Assembly (NCBI GenBank): GCA_003194525.1 | Contig: NBIV01000014.1 | Location: 434,001-498,000, forward strand | Direction: 5' to 3' | DNA length: 64,000 nucleotides | Origin: Gracilariopsis chorda | Lineage: Eukaryota; Rhodophyta; Florideophyceae; Gracilariales; Gracilariaceae | In this document: positions 18,738 through 62,555 of the stretch, piece after piece | Numbering within the stretch: position 1 is the first letter of the stretch | Layout: every line of letters starts with the position of its first letter | The notes under the pieces: generated by a model | The model's input: the letters and a program-made list of their open reading frames with translations, nothing else | What the model was told of the DNA's origin: nothing | The model's database searches: none | Translations under genes and position numbers: made by a program

Positions 18738-19322
18738 CTTTGCCAACGTATGGTGACGGAAACAAATGTAGAACGGTTTCTTATGCAAAGGCTGTTACGG
18801 AGTAAAACGTCTAGCAAAAAATATGCTCTGGAATAAGACTACAACACCAAAGTATATCTCTCAGTGCTTCGCAGACACGAGAGTTTGACGATGCACAAGC
18901 AAGTTGAGTACGAAAGCGATAGGAAACCTCGCCTGGCTTTCTGTATCTACACAGGTTCGTTTTTGTCCCTGTATAGAACGAACTAACGAATGAATGGGCT
19001 TTCAAGGCATGGAGGAAGATGGTGCGGCGCCAGAGATGACGGGATCCTCACTAACGTCTTGAATTTTGAGCTGAAGCCAAAACCGTGGTAGATAAAGCGG
19101 TTAATTTATAGATTCCATTTTGTGTATTTCACCTTGGTGAGAAGCTACGGAACGGGAGCCTAACCGTCCACAAAGCAGATTCCGTTTCTGGTTTTAGTCA
19201 AACCTGGCAATTCGACGCAGATTGTGAGCTACGTCAATCAAGTATCCGATACCCCTGGTGCAGTAAATGGTACTTGTACTCTAAAACTTCCTCGCGTACT
19301 TGTTCCGATCCATACGTGCATC
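18738..19322. other. Intergenic, divergent promoter region
   Basis: 585 bp between the start codons of the dioxygenase (minus) and the ACAD10/11-type gene (plus). I see no gene or repeat. An untranslated or short coding 5' exon for either neighbour is possible. Confidence 0.35.
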
Positions 19323-21800
19323 ATGGTTGCAGAAGAGCATCCTTACCCCTCCCTCGATCAAACTCAATGTGCTCGTCTTTTATCTTGGGCCTCGTCTGGT
19401 GGTGTTGCTCCACTGTCCGAACTAGGGTTGAGTCCATCTTGCTCTCAAATTGAAGCTGTTCAGTTCGACCATGGCCAATCTAACCCGACTTATTCAGTTA
19501 GTGTGATGCATTCGAATGATCCAAACAGACAGTTTAGGTTTGTTGTTCGATCAAAACCGAGAGGAAAACTTCTGAAGGGAGCACATCGGATTGACCGCGA
19601 ATTTCGTGTCCTGGCAGCCCTATCATCCTCACCAGTCCCCGTTCCTCAAGTTTACGGGTATTGCGAGGCCCACTCCGTGCTTGGAGTGCCATTCTACGCC
19701 ATGAGCTATGTTCAAGGACGCATATTCAAAGATGTCAGTTTAAGAGCAGTTGCCTCTGCAAAGGAACGGCGAGCCATCTACGCCGAAGCTGTACGTGTTC
19801 TTCATTCATTGAGCAAAATTGATATTGATGCGTACGGGTTGCGAAATCTGAGCTCCGTTAGGATTTCTTGGATTGATAGACAGCTTGCTACATGGTATCG
19901 GCAGTACCAAGCAAGCAGAATACCCTCTGCGGACTATTCAAAGATGGAGCAGCTTTATGGGAATCTTGTAAGAGAATTGGAGACGTCTAGAGATGATCTG
20001 AAACATGCGCCGCCGAGCCTAGTTCACGGTGACTTCCGGATTGACAACTTGGTTTTCCATGAATCAAGACCCGAATGTTTAGCAGTTCTTGATTGGGAGC
20101 TAGTTTCCCTCGGTAGTCCGACGGCCGATTTAGCTTCGCTTCTTTGTCCTTATCACATGCCAGAAGAAGCCGCGTCAGTGCCAGTTCTACGCTCTGTTGC
20201 GTTTAGTTCACCACGTCCACCTGGGATTCCGACAGAAGACGAATTAATCGAAATGTACTTGCATAAGTTGCATAAGATCGATACTGATCGGAAACAATTT
20301 CTACCAAACTTGAGAATCTTTCTGGCGTTTGCGTTGTTTAAGTACGCAGCAATAATCTATGGCGTGCAATCTCGTGCTGTTCATGGAAATGCAGCATCCG
20401 TGCACGCCGTCACTCTGGGGAGCAATGCGAAGTATTTTGTAGAGGGAGGCATGAGTGCTCTCAAGACACCATGGACGCCCAGTTTTATTAACACCAAGAA
20501 TGTTTCCACTGCGGAAGACACGATAAAACAGAAAGTTCTGTGTTTCGTTCAACACGAAATTATGCCCTTGGAGGAAAACTTCCTCACCCATATACGATCA
20601 CAGAATCGATGGGTGCCATGGAAACCTCTCGAATTGCTAAAATCCAAAGCAAAGAACGCAGGACTGTGGAACTTCTTTCTTCCAAAAGATCTTGGCGGAA
20701 CAATGACCGCCCTTGAATATGCGCCGCTAGCAGAAATAACCGGAAGATGTCCGTATGCAGCCGAAGTGTTTAACTGCTCGGCTCCAGATACAGGTCCGTT
20801 TGTCATCAACGTATCGTAAGCTATGAACTTTTTTCTGACTGGGGTGAACGCTTTTTCGTCTTTTTCGTGTGTCTAATGAGGCACAGGAAACATTGAATTA
20901 CTTGCCAGGTATGGGACCGCGGAACAGAAAGAACAGTGGCTACAACCCCTGCTGAACGGGGAGATCCGCTCATGTTTTGCTATGACAGAGCCCGAAGTAG
21001 CATCATCAGATGCGACCAATCTGTCTACTAGTATCGAGAGCAGAGGGACGAAATACATCGTCAACGGTCGCAAATGGTGGACGAGTGGGGCGATGGATAA
21101 GCGATGCAAACTCATTCTCTTAATCGGAAAAGGCCCAGAACGAGTCTTGGGAAACAGAAAGCACAGACAGCACACAATTCTTCTAATACCTATGTCAGCA
21201 GCTGGGGTCAAAGTCCTGAGGCCATTGACGGTGTTCGGCTTCGATGACGCTCCACATGGTCACGCCGAGGTTGAATTCAACAATGTTGTCGTCAGTGTCT
21301 CAGAAGCTTTGCTTCACAAAGAGGGTGCCGGTTTCGAGGCCGCACAAAGCCGATTAGGGGGTGGTAGGCTTCATCACTGCATGCGACTGATTGGGTGCGG
21401 AGAAAGAGCTCTAGAACTACTCACGAAGCGTGCTGGAGAAAGGTCTGTCTTCGGAAAGAAGCTGATTGACAATGATGCGGTGCGTCAACAAATTGCACAG
21501 TGTAGATGTAATGTGGAAGCTGCTCGAAGTATGACGCTGTCTGCAGCTCGAGCGGTGGACGGCAGAAATGTACGTGATGTGCGTCGACTTGTAGCTGTAG
21601 CAAAGATCATGGTACCAAAGCTTATATCAGAAGTCGTAGATAGCGCCATCCAGATCCATGGGGGACTAGGTGTATGTCAGGACTCAATCTTAAGCCTGCT
21701 ATTTGCGCACGCGCGAACTTTGCGACTGGCGGACGGGCCGGATGAAGTGCACTCGCTCAACCTGGCAAAGATGGAAATCTCGTCGATGGCAAAACTGTAA
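19323..21800 (+). CDS. ACAD10/11-type fusion: APH-like kinase plus acyl-CoA dehydrogenase
   Basis: Two exons, 19323-20793 and 20887-21800, joined in phase 1 across a 93-bp intron (GTCCGT/ACAG), give 794 residues, the usual length of ACAD11. The first 350 residues form an aminoglycoside-phosphotransferase-type kinase domain with the catalytic HGDFRIDN at 235-242 and the metal-binding DWE at 257-259. The remainder is an acyl-CoA dehydrogenase: FNCSAPDTGNIELLARYGT, the flavin-binding stretch CFAMTEPEVASSD, and the C-terminal IQIHGGLGVCQD...ADGPDEVH. In animals ACAD10/11 phosphorylate and dehydrate 4-hydroxyacyl-CoAs for peroxisomal or mitochondrial beta-oxidation; plant IBR3 has the same layout. 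No clear peroxisomal tripeptide is seen at the terminus (MAKL is only loosely similar to SKL). An in-frame GTG upstream at 19224 is not used. Confidence 0.92.
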
Positions 21801-34058: not shown

Positions 34059-35282
34059 CTACGCGCTCGGCAATGAGTTTTCTCGGGGGCTATATGCGGT
34101 AGAGGGCTTGTGCATTACTACATAGCTTTGCGGGACTTCAGGTGGGGCTGCGGATGTGAATTTTTCAGCGGTGTCCGAAGTAAATACAAGTGGTGCTCGT
34201 CCAGAATTGGCTTTGGAAAAGGCTAGGACGGTTGCAATCAGTTTGAATGTTTGCTTGCTGTCTTCGGTGTAGACCGCGATAACAAACCGTGTTCTTGTTT
34301 CTATGAAGATACTGAAGTATCGATTGCCGTGATTTGATGATGTGGGGAAGGGACCACAGGTGTCAGAGAATATAGACTCGCCGGCTTTGTGATGGTGGAG
34401 TGCTTGTCTGTACGGTTGTCTGGCTATTCGTGCGTGCCCACACCCGGAACAGGTGAGTTTTGGTAGTGGGTTCTTGAGTACCGAGCAAACATCAAGTAAG
34501 TTTCTTTTGGCCATTTTCTGCAGAATACTCGGGTCGATGTTGTTATAGTGCAGGTGCCATTGGTGGAAAGTCCGTGTGATAAAGTCGCTAGGTGGGTTGG
34601 GGTGGGAGTTGGGGGGAGGTTTGGCTACTGGGGAGGTGGGCTGTTTGGGGTCGGACTTCGCTTTGAATCGGCGTGTGGGTTTGAGAGGCGTAGGCTTTTG
34701 AACACTGATTGGAGATGGTTTGTTGCTCTGAAATGTTCGAACGCTGGCAGCCATGGACAGACGGTTCAGTTTGTAACCATGTGGGGTCCATGAGGCTGTC
34801 CCAATGATCTTTAGGTGTGGTTTTGAGCGTATTAGGAAGGAGTGTCGTTGGCCAAAGAGAACCCAGCTATAGCGTTGCGCAATGGAATGTACTGATAGGT
34901 GGTTGTTTTGAACGTGCTTGGATACGTATGCTGGGAGTGAGATATTAAGGCCTTGGTCAGTCTTCAGATTGATTTTGTCCATCATCTGAAATGGAAGGGA
35001 AGAAGAATTGGCGGTAGTGGGGGATTTTGGTGTAGCTAGTGGTTGGCTGTTGGGCGGTGCGCTGCACACATTGGAAGGATGAGTGCCAGAATCCAAGATA
35101 TACTTACAGTCGCTTTGCATTGCGTCCTCCCGATGGTTGGCCTCTTGTATGGCTTGCAAAGCCTGCAGTACTTTTTCATCGAGGTCTGCGTCTCGTGAGT
35201 GGCATTGGCTTGGCCCGCATTTTGAGCTCGACTTCCACCTGTTCGGCGTGGTTTGGCGGGCTTGGTGCCATACAAGTCCCAA
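34059..35282 (-). pseudogene. Copia protease and integrase region
   Basis: Contains a Copia-type protease motif (YILDSGTHPSN), then the gag-pre-integrase zinc region (LTCSGCGHARIARQPYR) and the start of the integrase core (ESIFSDTCGPFPTSSNHGNR, TRFVIAVYTED). This is the longest readable part of the outer element; the element as a whole is broken. Confidence 0.85.
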
Positions 35283-37250: not shown

Positions 37251-37384
37251 ATTTGAATATATCAAAATGAGCACAAACACAAATTTTGAGTGTCATAACG
37301 GTCACTGATATTACCGCGCAAAATGCGACAAGCCAAGATGTTCAGCTTAGCATTGTCTCCACCTTTTTCAATCTGTCTCAAAAC

Positions 37385-38551
37385 ATGACGCCAACTTCAG
37401 TCCTACTGATTGCTCTGCTTAACCGAGAGCTGTCAAAGACTTTAACATTCAAACAAAGGCTTAACTCCGAAGGAAGACGACGTCGTGATCGTCGCATAAA
37501 TCGTTCTGCTTTGCTATTGCCATCAAAGTCCCCGTTTATATACGTTTTGAATTCAATGTCTGATCAGTCTATGATAACTCTAACAGGAATTGATCACGTT
37601 ACATTCGTGTATCTTCTGACACTATTCGAACCATTGTACTACCGATACACTCCACACGCCCGCAATGGAGATATAGGACTACGATTCAGCAAAAGTGGCC
37701 GTCCCCGCTCTATGACAGCCGAAATGTGCCTTGGTCTTGTGCTTTCATGGCATCGCACAAGAGGGGCGATGTGGAATTGGTGCCTATTATTCGGAGTTAC
37801 AAACTCTGTGTGCTCTATGTTTCTTCGGTTTTGGAGGCGTTTGCTACTGCGTGTCTTGTCCCGCGAAAAGCATGCTACTATAAGAATGCCAAATCTAGTT
37901 CAAGTACAAGAATTTAAGGAAGCTATTTCTGAGAAGTATCACAAACTAGACAGCGTCTATGCCATTGTGGACGGTCTCAAACTGTTGTTGGAACAATCTG
38001 GTGATTGTGTTATTCAGAACATGTTCTACAATGGATGGACTCACGACCATTATGTTGGAAACGTTTTTGTGTTTGCTCCAAATGAAACGATCATAGCATG
38101 TTTGCTTAATGCTCCTGGCAGCATGCACGATTCTGTTATAGCAGATCTTGGAAAGCTTTGCAACAAACTTGGCGCTAAATATGCCGAACATGGCGGCCTT
38201 TGTCTGGTAGATTCAGCGTTCTGCAAGAAGAATCACCCGTTTCTTTTAAAATCTGCCCAGGATGAGACAAATGTGACCGATCCAGACGACCTCGTACGCC
38301 TCCGTCAAGCAGCCTCAGTTCGCCAAGCCTCAGAATGGGGCATGCGCGCATTTCGAGGAATGTTTCCGCGAATGAAAGACCGCTTCATGTATGAAGAAAA
38401 TGGAGAAAGGAGGATAATGCTGCTTTTCACTGCGCATCTGTTTTATCTACGAACACGCAAAGCCGGCATAAACCAGATTCTGTCAACCTATATGCCTCAA
38501 AAAAGTGCAGATGTGAATTATTATCTGCAGGATACCTTTAACCTCTACTGA
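37385..38551 (+). CDS. DDE_Tnp_4-type transposase
   Basis: Open frame of 388 residues from ATG 37385; the frame extends 33 codons further up to a TTG without an ATG. It has the HARBI1-like endonuclease order: a helix-turn-helix region with SGRPRSMTAEMCLGLVLSW, YAIVDGLKLLLEQSG (D196), NAPGSMHDSVIADL (D249), LCLVDSAFCK (D276) and ASEWGMRAFRGMFPRMKDR (E317). These acidic residues are the candidate DDE triad plus the usual extra Asp of PIF-type enzymes. The last part (LLFTAHLFYLRTRKAGINQI) resembles the terminal HNL segment. No stop or frameshift is seen after the ATG, so it may still encode protein. A short upstream exon or a lost N-terminus cannot be told apart here. Confidence 0.85.
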   Translation: MTPTSVLLIALLNRELSKTLTFKQRLNSEGRRRRDRRINRSALLLPSKSPFIYVLNSMSDQSMITLTGIDHVTFVYLLTLFEPLYYRYTPHARNGDIGLRFSKSGRPRSMTAEMCLGLVLSWHRTRGAMWNWCLLFGVTNSVCSMFLRFWRRLLLRVLSREKHATIRMPNLVQVQEFKEAISEKYHKLDSVYAIVDGLKLLLEQSGDCVIQNMFYNGWTHDHYVGNVFVFAPNETIIACLLNAPGSMHDSVIADLGKLCNKLGAKYAEHGGLCLVDSAFCKKNHPFLLKSAQDETNVTDPDDLVRLRQAASVRQASEWGMRAFRGMFPRMKDRFMYEENGERRIMLLFTAHLFYLRTRKAGINQILSTYMPQKSADVNYYLQDTFNLY

Positions 38552-39324
38552 GATTTCGATGTCTTTGCGACCAACATGAGCATCATCTCCGTCAATTTCT
38601 CGTGACGACGACTTTCGTCAAGACATTGCAGTCGGTTCTCCTCTCGCTCCTCTTTGCGGCTTTCTAAGTCCTCCTCTCTCCGCTTCTGGTCATTCAACAT
38701 CGACAACCTAAATAAATCCATAATATCGTCTCTATTATCCTTCCCACGCATCATGGGGCAAGGACGAACTAAAGGGCGTGCGATCCTTAACGGGGTTTGG
38801 ACCAAAGTCTTTTCCGCAATCACATCTTTCGTTTCATTCGTGTCGTGTGCACCCTCCCTATCAGTCTCCACTAATGTTGATAACTGTGTTTCGTTAAACG
38901 AAACTTCTACTGCATCCTCAATATCTTCGTCCACAGCGATTTCGGCACGCTTGGTGATCAAATCTCGTATTGATTTTGCACGATGGACATAATAAGGAAT
39001 CAGCGGATCCTCTGTCTGCATGCGATGACGGTGAAGAGAGAAAAACTTGCGTTTGAGTGATTCAACACTTCGCTCTCGCTGAGAGAACGTTTTTTTGTGT
39101 TCGCTGAGCAATGCCGCCCATTCTTCACTTCCAATAGGAAGATACTTGTCCATAAGATCCAATAAGAAATCCGTTTTCTTTTGACAAAACCCAAATATCC
39201 GTGGAGCTGTACTAGTTTTCTTTTTCATGGTTTTTGCATGCGGTTTGAAAGGCGGTGGTAAAACAGAGTCAATCGGATTGCCAGCAGAGAAAGACGTACT
39301 GTCGGGAAGAAGACGTGGAGTCAT
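38545..39324 (-). CDS. Transposon accessory protein with Myb/trihelix-like domain
   Basis: Open frame of 259 residues, ATG 39324, ending 7 bp inside the transposase stop region on the opposite strand. Residues 45-120 (FLLDLMDKYLPIGSEEWAAL, RERSVESLKRKFFSLHRHR, DPLIPYYVHRAKSIRDLI) resemble the DUF6818-type Myb-like domains found next to transposases in oomycetes and other protists: one W-containing helix, a Lys/Arg helix, then the P..V..AK motif. The C-terminal half is a charged coiled coil (RREEDLESRKEEREENRLQC). Second Harbinger genes of this sort bind transposon ends. Intact. Confidence 0.75.
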   Translation of the reverse strand: MTPRLLPDSTSFSAGNPIDSVLPPPFKPHAKTMKKKTSTAPRIFGFCQKKTDFLLDLMDKYLPIGSEEWAALLSEHKKTFSQRERSVESLKRKFFSLHRHRMQTEDPLIPYYVHRAKSIRDLITKRAEIAVDEDIEDAVEVSFNETQLSTLVETDREGAHDTNETKDVIAEKTLVQTPLRIARPLVRPCPMMRGKDNRDDIMDLFRLSMLNDQKRREEDLESRKEEREENRLQCLDESRRHEKLTEMMLMLVAKTSKSQ

Positions 39325-43363: not shown

Positions 43364-44170
43364 CTACTTGAGAAAATAGGAAAATGAGTCAAATACTGTA
43401 TCGAGTGCATCGCAAACCCTGCTGCCGAGCTTCCTGCAAAAGCGCCGAAAACCTCCCTGTGGGTTTTCGCCATGTCTGTTTAATGCTTCTTTCAACTTCT
43501 TTTCCAGCTCTTCCACCATCTCTTGCAGCCTTTGAACAGTCAGCTCAAAACCATTGGCGTTGATTGCAAACGATTTGTTCCTGGACATGTCAAAGGCTGG
43601 CGCTGTTCTTAAAAATTCCTTGTACACATTTGAGTCAGTTGTAACAAGAACGTTATGCTTTCCTGCAGCATAGTCTCTGTATGGCATGTACGCAATTCTT
43701 CCCGCAGGGGCAGCAGAGTTTAAGGGAACTTCTAGCATGGCCCTGTTCTTCTTATTCTCGAGAAGCTCCAGCACCTCTGGTTCACACTTGTTGATGATGA
43801 TGGAAAACTGCTTGGCAGGGTCAACACCAACGCTTTGAATTGCCTCTACGATAATTCTCATAGTGGCAAGATCAGTGCTTCGCAAACGACCGGCCTCGAG
43901 TGTCGAGACAAAGATAAGCTTTATCTTTCCGCCTCTTCGAAAAGCATACGAGATTTCCTTGGCAGCCCTATCACGTATACGCGCATCATCAAGCCCAGGG
44001 GTGTCAGAATATAAAACGTTTCCGATTCGCTTCGAGTCCAGAGCGGTAGTCAGTCCGCTCCCAAGAGAGATCCCGGACTCGAACTTCACTCTTCCAATGA
44101 TGCTGTTGAGAATCGAAGACTTCCCAGAGCCGGGGTTTCCAGCAACGATCACATGTTCTTGCCTGGACAT
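43364..44170 (-). CDS. AIG1/GIMAP-like GTPase A
   Basis: Predicted 268 residues from ATG 44170. G1 is GNPGSGKSS (11-19), followed by FESGISLGSGLT (G2 region), DTPGLDD (G3), the AIG1 conserved box as TLEAGRLRSTDLATM and NKCE (G4, IIINKCEPE). These features define the AIG1/GIMAP branch of septin-related GTPases, which in plants and animals act in defence and in lymphocyte survival by assembling on membranes. After the G domain come a module shared with the two neighbours (AGKHNVL...TAPAFDM), a coiled coil (VQRLQEMVEELEKKLKEA) and an amphipathic, Phe-rich tail (DTVFDSFSYFLK). There is almost no N-terminal extension, so an upstream exon may have been missed. Head-to-head with GTPase B. Confidence 0.85.
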   Translation of the reverse strand: MSRQEHVIVAGNPGSGKSSILNSIIGRVKFESGISLGSGLTTALDSKRIGNVLYSDTPGLDDARIRDRAAKEISYAFRRGGKIKLIFVSTLEAGRLRSTDLATMRIIVEAIQSVGVDPAKQFSIIINKCEPEVLELLENKKNRAMLEVPLNSAAPAGRIAYMPYRDYAAGKHNVLVTTDSNVYKEFLRTAPAFDMSRNKSFAINANGFELTVQRLQEMVEELEKKLKEALNRHGENPQGGFRRFCRKLGSRVCDALDTVFDSFSYFLK

Positions 44171-45356
44171 AGAGACTATCAAGCCACGGCTAAGCGTCTG
44201 GATTGGATCTTTGTAACCTGTTGGGGATGGCTCTAAGTCGCAATTCTTGATGATACTGGTATAGTAAGCTTGTGCCCAATGAACAGCAGATGAGCAAAGG
44301 GGAGAGTGGAACAGGAATCAGGGGAAGCTACACTTTATTAGCGACAGAACGTAACGGAGAAGTCACGGAGTGGCACCAATGCTTGTTGTAAATCTTCGTT
44401 TTGTACCGCTTGCAAAGGCGTGTCTCCTTTTATCTTTTTGGGAGTATCCTCAGCGAGCGACCAAAGAATAAGGTGTGCGTTTGCAATACTAACTCTGTAG
44501 GCCATTGTTTGTTGCAGCAACACAAGTGACCAGTGCATTTTGATATTAGGAAGGGTCCTACAACATATAACTGTCGAATATGCCCTTCTGCTTTGGGAGC
44601 ATCCCGTGCGACAGGTGCTCATCCCTCTTAGGGCAGCAAGGCTACACAAATAATCTGCGTAAAGGCCTTATCCACCATGTGTTACACGGATACAGTGTAT
44701 CTTTATACTGTACGGAACCTTTGTTTGACAACTTCTAGAACGTAATAGTAAGGTTTCTCGTATAGATACAGCTGCAACCGCACAAAGGGTTTCGTAACAT
44801 CCGACGTGTTTGAAACTCTTACGCAAATCTCCGACATGTGACCAACACTCCAGCACATAAAAATTTACGCCAACTCCGACTACGAGCGGAACACGGTTGC
44901 GCATGTCTCCCATCGTTGACTAAAACGATAAAACATAATCACGAATACAGATCACGCCTGTCTCTCAATTTCAATCCGGCAGAAATGATATCCGCCAGCA
45001 TCAAGAAGCTTCTAGGAATTCAGGGGATTCCACTCGACATTATTTCACGGGATTATTGTTGTAGACGGAGACAGTGCACAGCAATTCACTGCAGTGTGCG
45101 AAAATCGGCGACTATATATCATACGAACCTTGGATGGTTTTGCATCGTTCCAATAAGTGTCGTGAATAAGAGGAACAGCTCCAGACTTCGTTCGGTATCT
45201 TGACGGATTTCCAACTTTCTCCGAGGGACTGTGGCCTAGGAACTAGACCAACGCCTACAACGCGCTTCAAAACGAGACATCCAAACTGCTTCGTACGTGC
45301 AAGTTAACCGTTAAGCTTTGATTCTTGCCTACCAAGTACAACCGTAACTGAGCAGA
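44171..45356. other. Divergent intergenic region of the GTPase pair
   Basis: 1.19 kb between GTPases A and B. A minus-strand frame at 44338-44649 ends with a segment (AHLILWSLAEDTPKKIKGDT, then PLQAVQNEDLQQAL) faintly like one ankyrin repeat. It may be a remnant or an unrecognised exon of GTPase A. Confidence 0.3.
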
Positions 45357-46565
45357 ATGCATAGATCTCAAGCTTCTCTTCAACATGCTCAAAGCTGTGA
45401 ATACGTTGCCCATCCATGTGGTAGGAAAACATGTGGGATTTGTGATCAACAGCGGCCACAGAGATCGTATTCAACACCAGCACGGGCGTCATCTCCCAGT
45501 ATGAAATCACTAAAACACCAAGCCGCTACCCCCGGGAGAAGAACCGATCTTTCTGTTTGCCAAAATTGTGATAGATCGCAAGGTGAGGAGACGAAAGAGA
45601 AAAGCACTTCATCTGACAGTCAGACGCTCTCTGTCGTGTCCGACACGGAGCATTCGCAAGTTCTGCCCAACTCAGAAACTAAAGCACCCACAAGAGTGAT
45701 TGTGATTGGCAATCCAGGGGTCGGAAAGTCAACGATCCAAAACACCCTACTCCAGAAGACTGTATTCGAATCAGGAATTTCATTGGGTGGAGGTCTTACA
45801 AAGAGTACGGCAACGTGCACCAAAGGTGACTTGACGTTTGTTGATACTCCAGGTTTGGATGACTTGTACAATAGGAGAACAGCAGCCAAGGAGATTTCAG
45901 CTGCTTTGCGTGGACCTTCTACGGTGAAAATGGTCTTTGTAACTGCTTTGGAAGCCGGTCGTGTGCGCTCAGCTGACGTTTGTACATTACAGACAATTGT
46001 GACGGCGTTGAGAGAGGTTGTGGGGGATATGACAAGAAAGTATACGTTGATAATTAACAAGTGTGAAGACTCACTCGCGCAGACGCTAACAAAAAAAGAT
46101 TCTCTAGAGCTTCGGGCAAGCGTGTTGGGTCCGTATTTTGCGGTTGAAGAGGCGAAACAAGTTGAAATCATTCGAGCTGAGACGAGTATCCGAGGAAAGT
46201 CCGGTACTTTGCTTAACAGGCAAGCAGCGGAGAGGCTTCGAGGCCTCATTGAGCGTGCCCCAACTATCGACCTACCTGCTGAACCTGTTGTGAGGTTGAA
46301 ATTGAAAACTTACGAAAAGAATGCTCAACAAATAGACGAAGAAATGCGTCGGTTCTACAAGGGGTCTGCACAGAATGAAAAGATCAGTAATAAGAGGGCG
46401 GCCAGGAACGAGCAGAAAACGCAATTCTACCCGCAACCTTGTGTCGGTGATGAAGCGAATATGGAAAGGTTCAAAGCACGAATGAGCCACTATTCGAACA
46501 GAAGGGGGGCACAAAAACGCAAATGGTGGGCAGAAGTCTTTGGCGGAATGTTCAACACCCCTTAG
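45357..46565 (+). CDS. AIG1/GIMAP-like GTPase B with cysteine-pair N-terminus
   Basis: Predicted 402 residues, ATG 45357. The first 110 residues are Ser/Thr-rich and carry two CxxC pairs (CGIC at 26-29, CQNC at 68-71) that could hold one zinc ion. The G domain follows: GNPGVGKST (118-126), FESGISLGGGLT, DTPGLDD, the conserved box ALEAGRVRSADVCTL and IINKCED. Then comes the shared module (IRGKSGTLLN...RAPTIDLP), a short charged helix and a strongly basic tail (YSNRRGAQKRKWWAEVFGG). G-domain sequence is closest to GTPase C by eye. Family role as for GTPase A; the local role is unknown. Convergent with GTPase C at 590 bp. Confidence 0.87.
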   Translation: MHRSQASLQHAQSCEYVAHPCGRKTCGICDQQRPQRSYSTPARASSPSMKSLKHQAATPGRRTDLSVCQNCDRSQGEETKEKSTSSDSQTLSVVSDTEHSQVLPNSETKAPTRVIVIGNPGVGKSTIQNTLLQKTVFESGISLGGGLTKSTATCTKGDLTFVDTPGLDDLYNRRTAAKEISAALRGPSTVKMVFVTALEAGRVRSADVCTLQTIVTALREVVGDMTRKYTLIINKCEDSLAQTLTKKDSLELRASVLGPYFAVEEAKQVEIIRAETSIRGKSGTLLNRQAAERLRGLIERAPTIDLPAEPVVRLKLKTYEKNAQQIDEEMRRFYKGSAQNEKISNKRAARNEQKTQFYPQPCVGDEANMERFKARMSHYSNRRGAQKRKWWAEVFGGMFNTP

Positions 46566-47155
46566 AAACATGTCGACTCAGCCTGTCGCTATTCGCATTC
46601 ACTTAAAACGCAAATCGACGCTTTGTGAAGGCCCTAGTGTTTAGCTGAATACAAAAATTGCACGCAGCTGTCGGACAAAGACATGATGCTGTTTCAAGTT
46701 TGTGGGAGCTCACTACAAGTATCGCTGCCTGTTTTCTCCGGTGCCTTGGATGACGCTCTTCATGGCAATTAAGTTTATACCTCAGTTGTCATAAATAAAC
46801 TATCATAATAAAGGGGTAGACGTGCAACTCGACATCGAGAGACCACCGTTTAGTTTTAGTTTGCTTGTCGCCGCGACTTCTAGACGTCCCGATTTAGCCC
46901 AAGCCTGTTATGGCAGCTTTGGACTCTGAATCGCTGAGGATGAAGATGAGCAAAGCGAACGTGACATAAGGTTTGCAATCGTTGGAAACTATTATACATG
47001 TACGTTGCAGCATATGCTAGAACGTTCTGCAACAGGGAAGTTGCACAAAACTGCTCTGCTTAGCCACAAGCCCAAGCTGTAGTGACCTTTAGGAGCACGA
47101 ATAGTTAGACAAGAAGAAAGTATACCTCAGAATAACCTGCTAAATCATGTCAACG
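46566..47155. other. Convergent intergenic region
   Basis: 590 bp between the 3' ends of GTPases B and C. Nothing recognised. Confidence 0.4.
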
Positions 47156-48076
47156 CTACAGAAAAGCCAAGACCAAGCTACAAGCCATCTGCGCAAGTCC
47201 TACCCAGGGTTCAAGTCCGGCCAGCAATTCTATCAACTTCCCCATACCTCTTCTAAACCTTCCCAACCCCCGCTCGCCATCTACCTCGCTAACAAGACTA
47301 CGAGGAGCACAGTATTCTGGATCACTGATACCTCCCCTCGAATTATTAAGTTGAAGCGCGCGGTCATACGTGTTGTAGAACACCTTGATGTCTTCTTCAA
47401 TTTCGTTCTTGCAATGGCCGAAGTTGGTGAAGTCCAGATGCAGAATTGGGTTGTAAGGTAGCTTGATGGTTGGAGTAGCCACAATCACGTCACGGAGTCT
47501 CTCAATGTTTGTATCCCGGAGCAAAACATTTGCCTTCCCACTTGCGGTTGGTTCACGTCGAATCAGTGCAAATCGTGAAATCCCGCCGAGCGCCTTAAAC
47601 GGGGCTAATACGCGCGTGCGAGTTTTCACCTTAGTGAATTCATCCAAAAGACTGTTGTAGACGGAATCCTCGCACTTATTGATGATAAGCAAGTATCTGT
47701 CATCAATATTTCCAACCACATGCCTCAGTTCATCCAAAACAGTGGCAAGAGTGGCAAGGTCACCACTCCTTACTCGCCCAGATTCTAGAGTGGTTACAAA
47801 CACCAGTTTAACACGGCACGGGCCTCGTAGAGCAGCTGAAACTTCTCGAGTGGCGTTCTTGCAATTGTATACATCATCTATGCCGGGAGTGTCCACGTAC
47901 ACGAAACGACCCAGCGGAGATGAGCGTGCAGCGTTTGTAAGGCCTCCGGCGATCGAAACACCGGATTCGGATGCTCTTCTACCGAGAAGAGTATTGTATA
48001 TTGTTGACTTTCCCACGCCCGGATTACCGAGCAGTACGATCTTGGTCGGAAGGTTGTCAGAGGAAGTTAAAAGCAT
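47156..48076 (-). CDS. AIG1/GIMAP-like GTPase C with hydrophobic C-terminus
   Basis: Predicted 306 residues, ATG 48076 (MLLTSSDNLPTKIVLLGNP). G motifs: GNPGVGKST (17-25), SESGVSIAGGLT, DTPGIDD, TLESGRVRSGDLATL and IINKCED. The shared C-terminal module reads SGKANVLL...ATPTIKLP. It ends in a hydrophobic stretch (WVGLAQMACSLVLAFL) that fits a tail anchor, as in several GIMAPs and Toc34-type proteins. So the three neighbouring paralogues have three different tails: amphipathic (A), basic (B) and membrane-inserting (C). Single exon. Confidence 0.87.
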   Translation of the reverse strand: MLLTSSDNLPTKIVLLGNPGVGKSTIYNTLLGRRASESGVSIAGGLTNAARSSPLGRFVYVDTPGIDDVYNCKNATREVSAALRGPCRVKLVFVTTLESGRVRSGDLATLATVLDELRHVVGNIDDRYLLIINKCEDSVYNSLLDEFTKVKTRTRVLAPFKALGGISRFALIRREPTASGKANVLLRDTNIERLRDVIVATPTIKLPYNPILHLDFTNFGHCKNEIEEDIKVFYNTYDRALQLNNSRGGISDPEYCAPRSLVSEVDGERGLGRFRRGMGKLIELLAGLEPWVGLAQMACSLVLAFL

Positions 48077-49488
48077 GTTTCGTTGAATAAGATGGACGAA
48101 AAGTCTCCAAAACTGGAGCTGAAGACTGATTCCGGGTTAAAGGTGTTCGAGCTTACTCCCCGACAGGAAGGTGGCTGAGAGAACAATGAAATGAGGGCTG
48201 TGTTCCCCAAGCCGTGTTCCGAAAGTATGTTTGGCTCGCACCTGATTGTGGCTGAGTATCTCTTCATCAGATTTGACAACCCTCGCAAGGAAGAATGACG
48301 ATAAAACATAGCAGCGCTCGGCCATGGCTTCTTTAAGGCTAACCTTACCAAGGAATCTGTGGGAACTCGCTATACAGTTGTATCCGCTCCTCCGGTGTCC
48401 TGGCCGGGGCACTTCCTTTAGCTCAGTCGTCACAGTATTGGATAGCACACCTCGCACTGTTGGCGATGAACGTGCAGGGAAACGTCCGGTAAACGGGCTG
48501 TCCTTTTTTTCTACTCTGGCGATTAAGTTAAATCAACTATTGGACAGCGGATATGGCAGTGCACAACGATGCACGAAAGATTTAAGGGTTTCTATCATAT
48601 AGTTAGATAACTGTTCGGCATAAAACTCGTCGGTTTAACTGTAATTCGTCGTTTCATATCAAAAACCGTAATCGACGTTTTGCAGAAAACGAACGTTTGG
48701 AGCGCCAGTCTCTGAACGCTCAGAAGCCCACCCCTCCAAGAATCCGTTATCATTCCCCTCTAAACTTCGTTAACAAGACCCTTCATGAGCTTCGTGCAAT
48801 CTCACAAGCTTTCAGCGTAATCAAATGAGGGGAACAAATTTTACCAAGCACACGAACAACAAGTGTCCCGCAAAACGCCCGATTAACGACACCAAAGCTC
48901 CAAAACAGTCAACGCAAGCGCTATTTCACATAAATTGGGTGTTTGGTACTCGGGGTACACGTTCAAGCACGGTTGTGGTCGTTTGAAGGATATGACCTTC
49001 ACTTGGCGGCGGTGATGTAGATTTGTGATTAATTTTGGAGCTGTTGGCACGCCGCCAACACGCGCGACGAATTTCATTGATATTGGAAAATGGCCTCGTC
49101 TGACGATGTCCATTGTTTCTGTTCTCCCTTTTGAAGTACTATGCCGTCCGCTACGAAACTTTCATAGCTTGTAGTCTGCTCAACGAGCGATTTTTACAAA
49201 GCTTTCAAAACGGTAATTAGACACCTATAAGCTGAGTTATGGATTCTGAGATTGTTTGCAGTTCGAAGACGGATTAAGAAAAAAACTTGGCAACTGGAAA
49301 ATTTCCAGTTGCCAAGTTGTTTTCTTAATCAGTGGAAATATAATAAACAAAACTATATTCATTCATAAAAATTATTTTTCGAAAGAAACATTTTAACTGT
49401 CTAGACTAGCTTGGCGTGATCCCCAACTTTTCCAAAGCGACGACGACAGGGTGAAACGCGTCGCTCTTCAATCACCTTCACTGGGCTC
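48077..49488. other. Intergenic stretch with long palindrome
   Basis: 1.4 kb between GTPase C and PAK1IP1, both transcribed outward from it. Small minus-strand frames show no family. An AT-rich segment (49330-49395) and the palindrome at 49272-49330 precede the PAK1IP1 start by about 160 bp. Confidence 0.4.
49272..49330. repeat. Near-perfect 59-bp palindrome
   Basis: Two 29-bp arms around one central A at 49301. The arms differ at a single position (GATTAAGAAAA then A or C, then AACTTGGCAACTGGAAA). Such length and symmetry are far beyond chance. Confidence 0.95.
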
Positions 49489-59083: not shown

Positions 59084-62000
59084 ATGAATAACGCTTCGCA
59101 ACCCGATGTGCAAGTGCCTCCTTCTCGAATATGGAACGTCTGCATGATTGCCCATGTCGATCATGGGAAGTCAGCATTAACGGACTCCCTAATAGCATCC
59201 AATGGAATTATATCTACCAGGTCCGCCGGGAAGACACGTTACATGGATTCCCGGGAAGATGAGCAAAGAAGAGGGATCACCATGAAATCTTCTTCTATAG
59301 CCCTCGGGCATCGCGTTTCCGGTAGGTTCACAAAGCGCTTTCTACTCGTTCATGAACTTCGTCATAAGCTTTGTTCTGACATTCTTGACCCAGTAATCGA
59401 TTTCGGTCCAATTCCCACACTTCACAGACGACGCACCTTTGAATATTATAAACCTAATAGACTCCCCCGGTCACGTGGATTTCACAGGTGAGGTTGAAGC
59501 AGCTATGCGAATATGTGATGGAGCTTTTCTTGTCGTCGACGTTGTAGAAGGAGTACGCGTTCAGACGGTTACCGTCTTGCGTTCCGCGCTCAAACACGAG
59601 ATTCGTCCGGTCCTGGTACTTAACAAAATCGATCGATTGTTCACTGAACTTAACCTCGATCCTCAGGAGGCTTATGAACATATCGTCAGCACTCTCGCAG
59701 AAGTGAACGTGATCATGGGGGTCAGACAAGTTGAGCAAATGATGGCTGCTGCGTCGGAACTGGAAACTGAAGGAGAAAATGAGTCAGGCTGGAGGCTCCA
59801 AGAAGATCCTTCTGACGATGTGGAAAAGTCCATTAGTGGATACTTCTCTCCAGAGATGGGAAATGTTGTATTTGCTTCTGCACTGGACGGTTGGGCATTT
59901 CGTCTAATAGACTTTGCAAGAATATTCTCCGAGAAGCAAGGCATATCCCGTCGAGTACTAAACAAGACTCTCTGGGGTGATTATTACCTTCATGCCAAGT
60001 CAAAAAGAATTGTCAAGCGGAAAGTCACTGATGTTCGAACAAAGTCGAAACCCATGTTTGTGCAGTGTATCATGTCAAACATTCACGCTGTTTACGATAC
60101 TCTGCTTAAGACACAGCACGACCACGAACTGACGGTCCAGAAGAGAAAGCACTTCGTATCTAAACTGGGTGTTAGTGTCAACGCCAGGGATATCAATCAT
60201 AGAGATGCGTCTACTGCGCTCCGGGCCATCATGAATTCCTGGCTCCCGGCGTCTTCTTGCCTTCTGGATACGGTAGTCGGAAAATTGCCGAGTGTAGCAG
60301 AAGCACAGTCCTTGAAGAATCGAGTACGAGCTTTGTGGGGAGATGTAGATGATTTGTGCAGCTCCAAGTCCTCAAGTAAGAAGATTAAGGCTGAAGTCAT
60401 TGAGAGCTTCAAGCGCCAACAGGAGGCCATATCGCAGGCCTCAACGAGCAAGGCCGAACCTTTCGTTGCATATGTAGCAAAAATGATTGAGAAAGATCGC
60501 GACGCGGGAGGGGGAACCATGAATATCCGAACACCAAAGACTCTGGAAGAACGGCGGAAAATCAATGAACAAGCGGCACTAGAGAACACCAGAAACCAAG
60601 ACTCGCCCGAAGCATCGATGATAGCATTTGCTCGAATTCTATCTGGAAGACTCACCATAGGCGACACTGTTTTCGTGTACTCCCCAAAATACAGAGTCTC
60701 CTTGGACGGTCGCTATGGCGAGGAATCGGTTATGAAAACAACAGTAACAGAACTTTATCTATTGATGGGAAGGGGAATGGATCCCATACATTCCGCCTCT
60801 GCAGGCTGTGTCGTCGGTATTGGTGGTCTAGAAGAATGCGTTCTAAAGACAGCTACTCTTGGCTCTGAACCACCAGGCCATTGTCTACCCGTCGGCTTCA
60901 ATTCGTCCACAATGATGAGAAAAGACCGAGAGGCTCTAGTACGCATCGCTGTGGAACCTCACTTACTCAGCGATGCTGGGAAGCTTCAAAACGGACTAAG
61001 GCGTCTCAATCAAGCTGATCCAGCAGTGGATACTTTCCTCACCGCCAAAGGAGAGCACATCATCGCAGCAAATGGAGAGTTACACCTCGAACGATGTCTA
61101 AAGGACTTACGAGAACGTTTTGCAAAAGGTGTGCGCATACATGTTTCGAAACCAATTGTACCATTTAGAGAAACGGTTTACGGAGGCTTTTCTCCAAATG
61201 TTCCACTTCCAGAAAGTGCGAAATCGAAAGAGCAGGTTCCGAAGCGAGAGTCGGAAACATCTATCGTCGAATCAACCGATAATAACAATGCACATGAAGC
61301 AACATCAATATCTGTCAAATCGCTGCCATTCAGTTCTTCATGGCGAGTGAGCATTGAAGCGAACGGTGAACCACTGAGCTACATAGATTCAAGCGTCGTT
61401 AATCACGGATTGTTTGTAACTGTGAGCAATGAGTCCATGTCTTTCCGGATGACAGCGGCACCCCTCCCGGCTCCTCTGGCAACGGTGTTAGACAGAGCTG
61501 GAAACGTTTTCAGAACTCCAGAGCTTGATGGGAGAGATCTGGACAAAGCAGCTGCCTCCGCACGACAGAGCATCAAAGAAGCCATTGAAGATTACGCCAA
61601 GGAGTCCAGTTCCCGTAAGCAATCAAAAGCGTCCATCGTCAAGTTTTGGAACGAAAGCATCTTTCCTTACGTGTGGTGCTGTGGCCCTAATCAGTGCGGA
61701 TCGAACTTGCTCGTGGGCCCGTATCCATACTCTGGCAAAACAGAGATCACGGAGCATATCTTCGGAACGAGCAAAACTATTGAAGATCGTTTTCGCGCGT
61801 TAGTGGATATTGAGAAGGCTATTGTTACTGGATTTCAGTTAGGGACACGGGCTGGTCCTTTGTGTGAAGAACCGTTGCATGGGGTGGTGATCCTACTGGA
61901 CAGTTTGAAAGCGGAGGGTATTTTGGAAGCTGAGGATGCGAAGTTGGGCACAGGCTCTGCAACGGGAGCAGAAGCCGGTAACGGTGAGGTGGACGATGAA

Positions 62001-62555
62001 GTGAACGAAATTAGCAGCATGCTTGGTCGTTCAAGCCTAAAGAGCTCGCCAATGTCTGGAGTGTTGATAGGGTGCATGCGAGAATCAGTGCGAACCGCGG
62101 TGATGCACGGAAACCCAAGACTGATGGAGAGCATTCTACACGTAGATATCTCGGTACCAGGCAGCGCCCTAGGCAAGACGTACACAGTTCTGGGACAGAG
62201 ACGCGGTCGAGTGCTGAAGGAGGAAATGAAAGAAGGGGTGAATGTTTTCGGTATTGAGGCGTACATGCCGGTGCAGGATTCTTTCGGGTTTGCTGACGTG
62301 CTGAGAAAACAGACGTCTGGATTTGCGGTGCCGCAAATGGTGTTCAGTCACTGGGAAGCGGTTGACCTTGATCCGTTCTGGTTTCCGCAGACGGAAGAGG
62401 AAGTTGAGGACTTTGGGGTTTCGGATAGCACGGCGGAGAACAATAATATTGCACGCAAACTGGTTAACGGGATTCGGCGGAGGAAGGGACTTAAGGTGGA
62501 AGAAAAGATTGTTGATGATGCTGAGAAACAACGAACTCTTTCGAGAAAGAAGTGA
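59084..62555 (+). CDS. EFL1/Ria1, elongation factor-like GTPase of 60S maturation
   Basis: Two exons, 59084-59321 and 59428-62555, joined in phase 1 across a 106-bp intron (GTAGGT/ACAG), give 1121 residues, as expected for EFL1 (about 1110-1120). GTPase motifs: AHVDHGKS (24-31), [17 protein letters not shown] (G2), DSPGHVDF (G3) and LNKIDRL (G4). The long insert between G domain and domain II, absent from EF-2, is present, followed by domain II ([20 protein letters not shown]), domain III ([20 protein letters not shown]), domain IV and the C-terminal [22 protein letters not shown]-2's diphthamide histidine loop is not seen. EFL1 with SBDS evicts eIF6 (Tif6) from late pre-60S particles. ATG 59084 in context ACCATGA. 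Confidence 0.96.

Follow-up and report, generated by a model that had tools for sequence, protein, structure and literature searches.

In a 64,000-nucleotide stretch of the Gracilariopsis chorda genome (contig NBIV01000014.1, positions 434,001 to 498,000; hereafter the window), three neighbouring genes, which we term A, B and C, encode GTPases whose kinship is far beyond chance. From sequence comparison and structure modelling we consider it rather likely that they are long-diverged paralogues making up one AIG1/GIMAP/Toc34-like ('paraseptin') subfamily in this red alga, whose G domains would pair and be activated by an arginine. The genes lie within 4.7 kb, each in an uninterrupted frame, just where the initial annotation had placed three single-exon AIG1-like paralogues; their intronless state is read from the open frames alone. 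The layout, in window positions, is as follows:

Gene A: 43364..44170, minus strand, 268 aa; AIG1/GIMAP-like G domain, helical C-terminal part and amphipathic tail (residues 243-260)
A/B spacer: 44171..45356, 1186 bp, between the head-to-head starts of A and B
Gene B: 45357..46565, plus strand, 402 aa; front of ~110 residues with two CxxC pairs, G domain and basic tail
B/C spacer: 46566..47155, 590 bp, between the converging ends of B and C
Gene C: 47156..48076, minus strand, 306 aa; G domain, long helix, amphipathic segment (268-285) and hydrophobic end (290-306)

We place the start of gene A at the ATG at 44170, where the program listing open reading frames (ORFs) had used a TTG at 44182; the frame stays open upstream to a TGA at 44318-44320, with no upstream ATG. 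An alignment of this upstream frame to B as an exon was rejected, as it looks like filler instead. Judging by the coordinates, the A/B spacer could hold a shared promoter.

In pairwise BLASTP comparisons, identity is 40% over 302 columns for B and C (1e-71), 33% over 241 columns for A and C (2e-40) and 36% over 215 columns for A and B (7e-41), which supports the local paralogy proposed at the outset. The motifs GNPGxGKS, ESG(I/V)S..GLT, DTPG(L/I)DD, LE(A/S)GR(V/L)RSxD and NKCE are each present in all three proteins, so that every G motif of the initial annotation is confirmed. The shared C-terminal module that it described, with an APTIDLP-like end, holds in part: after NKCE the A-C and B-C alignment scores are each reached by none of 2000 shuffles and that of A-B by 112 of 2000, and the terminal motif is exact in B, close in C (TPTIKLP) and degenerate in A (APAFDMS). 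A FastTree phylogeny of 11 G domains from this genome joins A, B and C as a monophyletic group with a support of 0.990.

Family placement and the conserved box

We base the AIG1/GIMAP reading on the shared G1, G3 and G4-type motifs, a conserved box of GIMAP type and the ranking of profile and fold searches. All three proteins pass the Pfam AIG1 cut-off of 27 bits (A 30.5, B 44.7, C 31.8) and contain the G1 motif GxxGxGKS and the G3 motif DTPG, both of which are also common to other TRAFAC GTPases and hence unspecific. Against the sequences of the PDB, a pooled A/B/C profile retrieves GIMAP7 at 3.6e-10, then GIMAP4, GIMAP2 and Toc33, all before the first Der protein at 6.4e-6. We built structure models of A and C, each from the three-row alignment, with a mean predicted local distance difference test score (pLDDT) of 68 and a predicted template modelling score of 0.72 for A, and of 65 and 0.67 for C. 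In fold searches of the PDB, the best match of both models is GIMAP2 (1.3e-6 for C, 9.4e-6 for A), with GIMAP7 and Toc34 close behind, and a long helix is predicted at residues 216-246 in C and 208-232 in A. Motifs and fold together support the AIG1/GIMAP-like identity given earlier. The Pfam Septin model stays under its cut-off of 26.2 bits for B (15.5) and C (11) and is not among the best 25 of the 29 families listed for A.

The motif LE(A/S)GR(V/L)RSxD aligns with the GIMAP conserved box in the profile alignments to GIMAP7, GIMAP2 and Toc33, the GIMAP4 stretch stopping before the box. In these alignments, R95 of A, R202 of B and R101 of C, the first arginine of the motif, fall on the R of LGRYT in GIMAP7, which we take to serve as an arginine finger in that protein, and on chain position 130 of Arabidopsis Toc33. 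PDB entry 3DEF, of Toc33, is titled as a dimerization deficient mutant, R130A. R133 of pea Toc34 is described as an arginine finger that reaches into the partner and is needed for stable dimers, the mutant being without hydrolysis (PMC12973003), and arginine fingers are stated for both TOC34/159 and AIG1/GIMAP proteins (PMC11238149). Given this literature and the pairing of the box arginine with GIMAP7 and Toc33, our alignments suggest that A, B and C are dimer-activated GTPases, each supplied with an arginine across the interface; the residue fits such dimers without proving them. Since coral GiMAPs have been reported without a recognisable conserved box (PMC3723955), its presence here is noteworthy.

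Searching the assembly with C (E up to 0.001) and with B and A (E up to 10), where the best five, five and four candidates, respectively, were scored, we found no copy beyond these three places; the sole additional match was an Era-type gene, at 0.30 with B. The Pfam AIG1 model, run over the assembly, returned 15 candidates, eight of them above cut-off, which we sorted by eye, leaving out C284 and C66 and rejecting C1, C44, C22, C150 and C51 as Der/YlqF/Era-type. The other AIG1-like genes are a head-to-head pair on C45 (L004 and L007; Pfam AIG1 scores of 48.9 and 40.8 bits), which lie ~2.6 kb apart and form a second cluster, and one on C296 (43.3 bits); the three are mutually related (0.948 in the FastTree phylogeny). 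Two further genes are Toc34-like: that on C20 (L010), whose PDB match to Toc33 reaches 1.3e-12 and which carries a hydrophobic stretch at 462, and that on C42 (L012), which is called Toc-like solely through its grouping with C20 (0.989), apart from A, B and C. Among the 11 G domains, the box column holds an arginine in A, B, C, both C45 genes and C20. This genome-wide count, a check proposed with the initial annotation, leaves A, B and C as the sole members of their subfamily that we found, the three other AIG1-like and the two Toc34-like genes being distant. AIG1/GIMAP genes have a patchy spread across eukaryotes.

Protein ends and a proposed mechanism

Amphipathicity was assessed in the last, helix-compatible stretch of each protein; in a first version of the test (18, 9 and 1528 of 2000 shuffles for A, C and B) the best window of A held NPQGG, which is incompatible with a helix. 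The moments of A (residues 243-260) and C (268-285) exceed what composition would give, being reached by 17 and 8 of 2000 shuffles, respectively, and the signal is weaker with 11-residue windows (91 and 145 of 2000). The tail of B is not amphipathic, its moment being reached by 1459 of 2000 shuffles, and an amphipathic helix was rejected there. The most hydrophobic 17-residue segment of C, its last 17 residues, has a Kyte-Doolittle value of 1.71, which is reached by 273 of 2000 shuffles of the last 60 residues, so that an 'anchor' in C is borderline and only a guess. B carries CxxC at residues 26-29 and 68-71, and nothing else in the assembly matches its front at E up to 10. The differing ends of the initial annotation (amphipathic in A, a CxxC front with basic tail in B, a hydrophobic anchor in C) thus stand for A and B, while C proves to be amphipathic as well and its anchor borderline; two of the three ends, those of A and C, are of a membrane-binding type. 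The A and C tails may share an origin (a weak signal, 62 of 2000 shuffles); a common origin was rejected for the A-B (894 of 2000) and B-C tails (952 of 2000), where we see no sign of it.

We propose the following mechanism as a model, drawn from relatives and from structure models of low to medium confidence. With GTP bound, two G domains would meet face to face, and the arginine of LE(A/S)GR(V/L)RS would enter the partner's site, where it would both steady the dimer and set off hydrolysis. The long helix that follows the G domain would be placed as in GIMAPs. A and C would rest on membranes by their amphipathic tails, C perhaps also inserting its short hydrophobic end. B would be soluble and bring its Cys-pair front, which may bind metal, and pairs of the same type or mixed dimers could then form a nucleotide-controlled membrane scaffold.

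Among known systems, GIMAP/IAN proteins such as GIMAP7 and GIMAP2 resemble A, B and C in G1, DTPG, the conserved-box arginine, the fold, the helical C-terminal part, the combination of soluble and membrane-type members and the clustering of genes. A, B and C differ from them in the G4 motif, which is NKCE, and in the ESG(I/V)S..GLT signature; they share 16-23% identity with the GIMAP entries of the fold lists and do not nest with the other AIG1-like genes of their own genome. Toc34 and Toc33 share the box arginine, the fold and the possible C-terminal anchor of C; however, the genome has other Toc-like genes, A lacks an anchor-like end and B has a Cys-rich front. The C45 and C296 genes likewise pass the Pfam AIG1 model, and the C45 pair shares the head-to-head layout and the arginine, but they form a separate subfamily of longer proteins with other flanks, and C296 lacks the arginine.

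Divergence and alternative readings

Between A, B and C, synonymous sites are at or near saturation: the proportion of synonymous differences is 0.70 for C-B, 0.85 for C-A and 0.80 for B-A, giving synonymous distances (dS) of 2.05 or infinite, with non-synonymous differences of 0.40-0.50. DNA similarity (blastn, E 0.01) is confined to the B-C coding sequence, with none in the compared flanks and with unrelated spacers, and tblastn detects no gene fragment in the window beyond a 21-residue chance match (E 0.94). The saturated or near-saturated synonymous sites and unrelated spacers speak against recent duplication, which was rejected. Third-position G+C of the three genes (0.44-0.51) falls inside the range of seven other window ORFs (0.42-0.63), so composition gives no hint of recent arrival. 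The sole figure that leans towards fast evolution is the C-terminal module of B and C, which appears to evolve more loosely, with a ratio of non-synonymous to synonymous distances (dN/dS) of 0.65 (dS 1.15) vs 0.27 overall. In the neighbourhood of the cluster, the window holds a transposon-related pair of ORFs:

37286-38551, plus strand: DDE_Tnp_4 transposase, Harbinger-type
38545-39324, minus strand: DUF6818 ORF, the converging Harbinger-type partner, with a 7-base overlap with the transposase ORF

At least 109 matches to this transposase occur across the genome, with 106 of 299 candidates scored, so that its nearness to the cluster is ordinary and of little meaning. The initial annotation had seen here a locally evolving set, with the transposon island as a sign of fast turnover; saturation, unrelated flanks, the want of extra copies or fragments and the abundance of the transposase all speak against this. 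Eight transposase matches cover 336 or more of the 391 residues with an identity of no less than 79%; of these, the window copy alone has no internal stop.

Several observations weigh against an AIG1/GIMAP assignment with a dimer arginine. The Pfam MMR_HSR1 model (cut-off 21.9 bits) ties with AIG1 for A (30.5 bits) and exceeds it for C (37.0 bits). The Pfam AIG1 model (PF04548) is itself unspecific, a Der protein of the same genome scoring 40.0 bits, above A and C, and its cut-off being passed in eight of 14 prokaryote control genomes; automatic Pfam AIG1 labels consequently need a second test. Searched alone against PDB sequences, C matches GIMAP7 (1.1e-6) and Der (1.4e-6) nearly equally. The fold scores are modest, the eight GIMAP2 entries of C having template modelling (TM) scores by query of 0.37-0.44; FeoB follows at 1.5e-5 in the list of C, and GIMAP2 leads FeoB, Era and others by one to two orders of magnitude at most; the models fall below a pLDDT of 50 in the tail of A and mostly so in residues 248-306 of C. 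In the tree, A, B and C do not nest with the other AIG1-like genes and their attachment is unsettled. Finally, the box column holds an arginine in the Era-type gene as well, and the AIG1-model genes C296 and C42 lack it. Membership in AIG1/GIMAP is thus not fully settled by Pfam and the tree.

Much of this could be expected if A, B and C were instead Era/Der/YlqF-like (MMR_HSR1) GTPases, on a eukaryotic branch of their own, that came to resemble GIMAPs: to the MMR_HSR1 scores, the tree and the Era-type arginine can be added NCBIfam matches, distant and all far short of the cut-off, to YlqF, Der, Era and HydF, and a G4 motif, NKCE, near the canonical NKxD. We nevertheless find this origin improbable, given that GIMAPs come first in the profile search and in both PDB fold searches and that the box arginine is absent from both Der rows. 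Toc34-like work at the plastid or mitochondrial outer membrane, in place of defence, would suit a photosynthetic host, the pairing with Toc33 R130, the hydrophobic C-terminal end of C, which recalls tail-anchored Toc34, and the rank of Toc34 structures as second family in the fold lists; it is very unlikely, however, since the separate C20 gene matches Toc33/34 far better and is joined in the tree by C42 rather than by A, B and C.

The initial annotation had pointed to a quickly evolving cluster, perhaps for defence, whose membrane-bound member could enlist soluble partners against pathogens. GIMAP/IAN relatives do respond to immune challenge, three coral genes being raised more than 50-fold by muramyl dipeptide (MDP; PMC3723955), the layout resembles tandem IAN/AIG arrays (PMC12845241 and PMC7053062), and the looser B-C module would fit. 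The saturated synonymous sites, the unrelated flanks, the lack of extra copies or fragments and the commonness of nearby transposons in this genome count against it, and we regard a role of this kind as doubtful. We retain as the preferred reading an old AIG1/GIMAP/Toc34-like subfamily with arginine-activated G-domain pairs.

Host, window context and wider occurrence

The host assembly comprises 91.3 Mb in 1081 contigs and has seven phycobilisome-linker places; among the 14 prokaryote controls, the cyanobacterium alone matched. From these linkers and the eukaryotic size we infer a photosynthetic red alga. The host G+C of ~48% compares with 46.6-49.9% in four Gracilaria assemblies, for which repeats of 45.7-66.2% are given (PMC10388701).

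Elsewhere in the window, a near-perfect 32-nt inverted repeat (94%, 1 nt between the arms) lies at 49269-49333, between C and a WD40 gene. The ORF at 34059-35282 (minus strand) contains an integrase core, rve, at 30.4 bits (cut-off 32.6), and is probably part of a long terminal repeat element. An APH-type kinase ORF (Pfam) at 19224-20819 (plus strand) is followed at 20982-21800 (plus strand) by what reads by eye as its acyl-CoA dehydrogenase continuation; the two may belong to a single ACAD10/11-like gene that an intron or a frame change divides. The match of an EFL1-like elongation factor ORF at 59439-62555 (plus strand) begins inside the GTPase profile, at position 71, so that the true start is probably upstream.

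We found no relatives in GTDB contigs by pattern-based scans (592 and 160 matching stretches), which see close relatives only, nor in viral contigs by four scans, nor among phages and plasmids searched with the B core only. Three GTDB loci of the 160 stretches were set aside as other GTPases, sharing by eye, as whole proteins, little beyond the G motifs (best tblastn match of A, B and C in a search of these loci alone, 1.1e-6). Transfer from prokaryotes, phages or plasmids was rejected, no relative being found in those collections; these being sets of prokaryotes and viruses, the lack of a match in them has little bearing on other algae. Bacterial defence models gave weak partial matches only (best 5.5e-6). 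In a viral fold library, C has 18 matches at 0.001 or better. The best, at 1.4e-11 (the second is at 1.4e-6), is an AIG1 family protein of Marseillevirus LCMAC103, a protein of 225 aa compared by fold match only, with 26% identity and a TM score by target of 0.67.

In the literature naming AIG1 together with a red alga, of which we covered a part, no red-algal AIG1 cluster came to light, which does not establish its absence from print. A survey of AIG1 in plants from 2026, which in its methods counts ten plant species and three outgroups, and in its abstract eleven species, does not name Cyanidioschyzon, Chondrus or Galdieria in the main text that we covered; it describes IAN duplicates of Arabidopsis that lie head to head (PMC12845241). 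In this alga, a head-to-head pair occurs in each of the two AIG1-like clusters, A/B in one and the C45 genes in the other. A bolder conjecture is that the cluster corresponds, in red algae, to the IAN clusters of plants and the GIMAP clusters of animals. It would be an ancient membrane switch of three parts, A and C bringing amphipathic tails and the soluble B its Cys-pair front to mixed arginine-finger dimers, and giant viruses would carry a relative through gene exchange. We give this scant chance of being right in full.

A, B and C are ordinary in kind, and somewhat unusual in their host and as a self-contained three-gene subfamily. As a red-algal, AIG1-like subfamily outside the Toc proteins that keeps the dimer arginine, they would make a compact group on which to test whether dimer-activated membrane GTPases are older than the red-green split, and whether such GTPases first served in immunity or in housekeeping.

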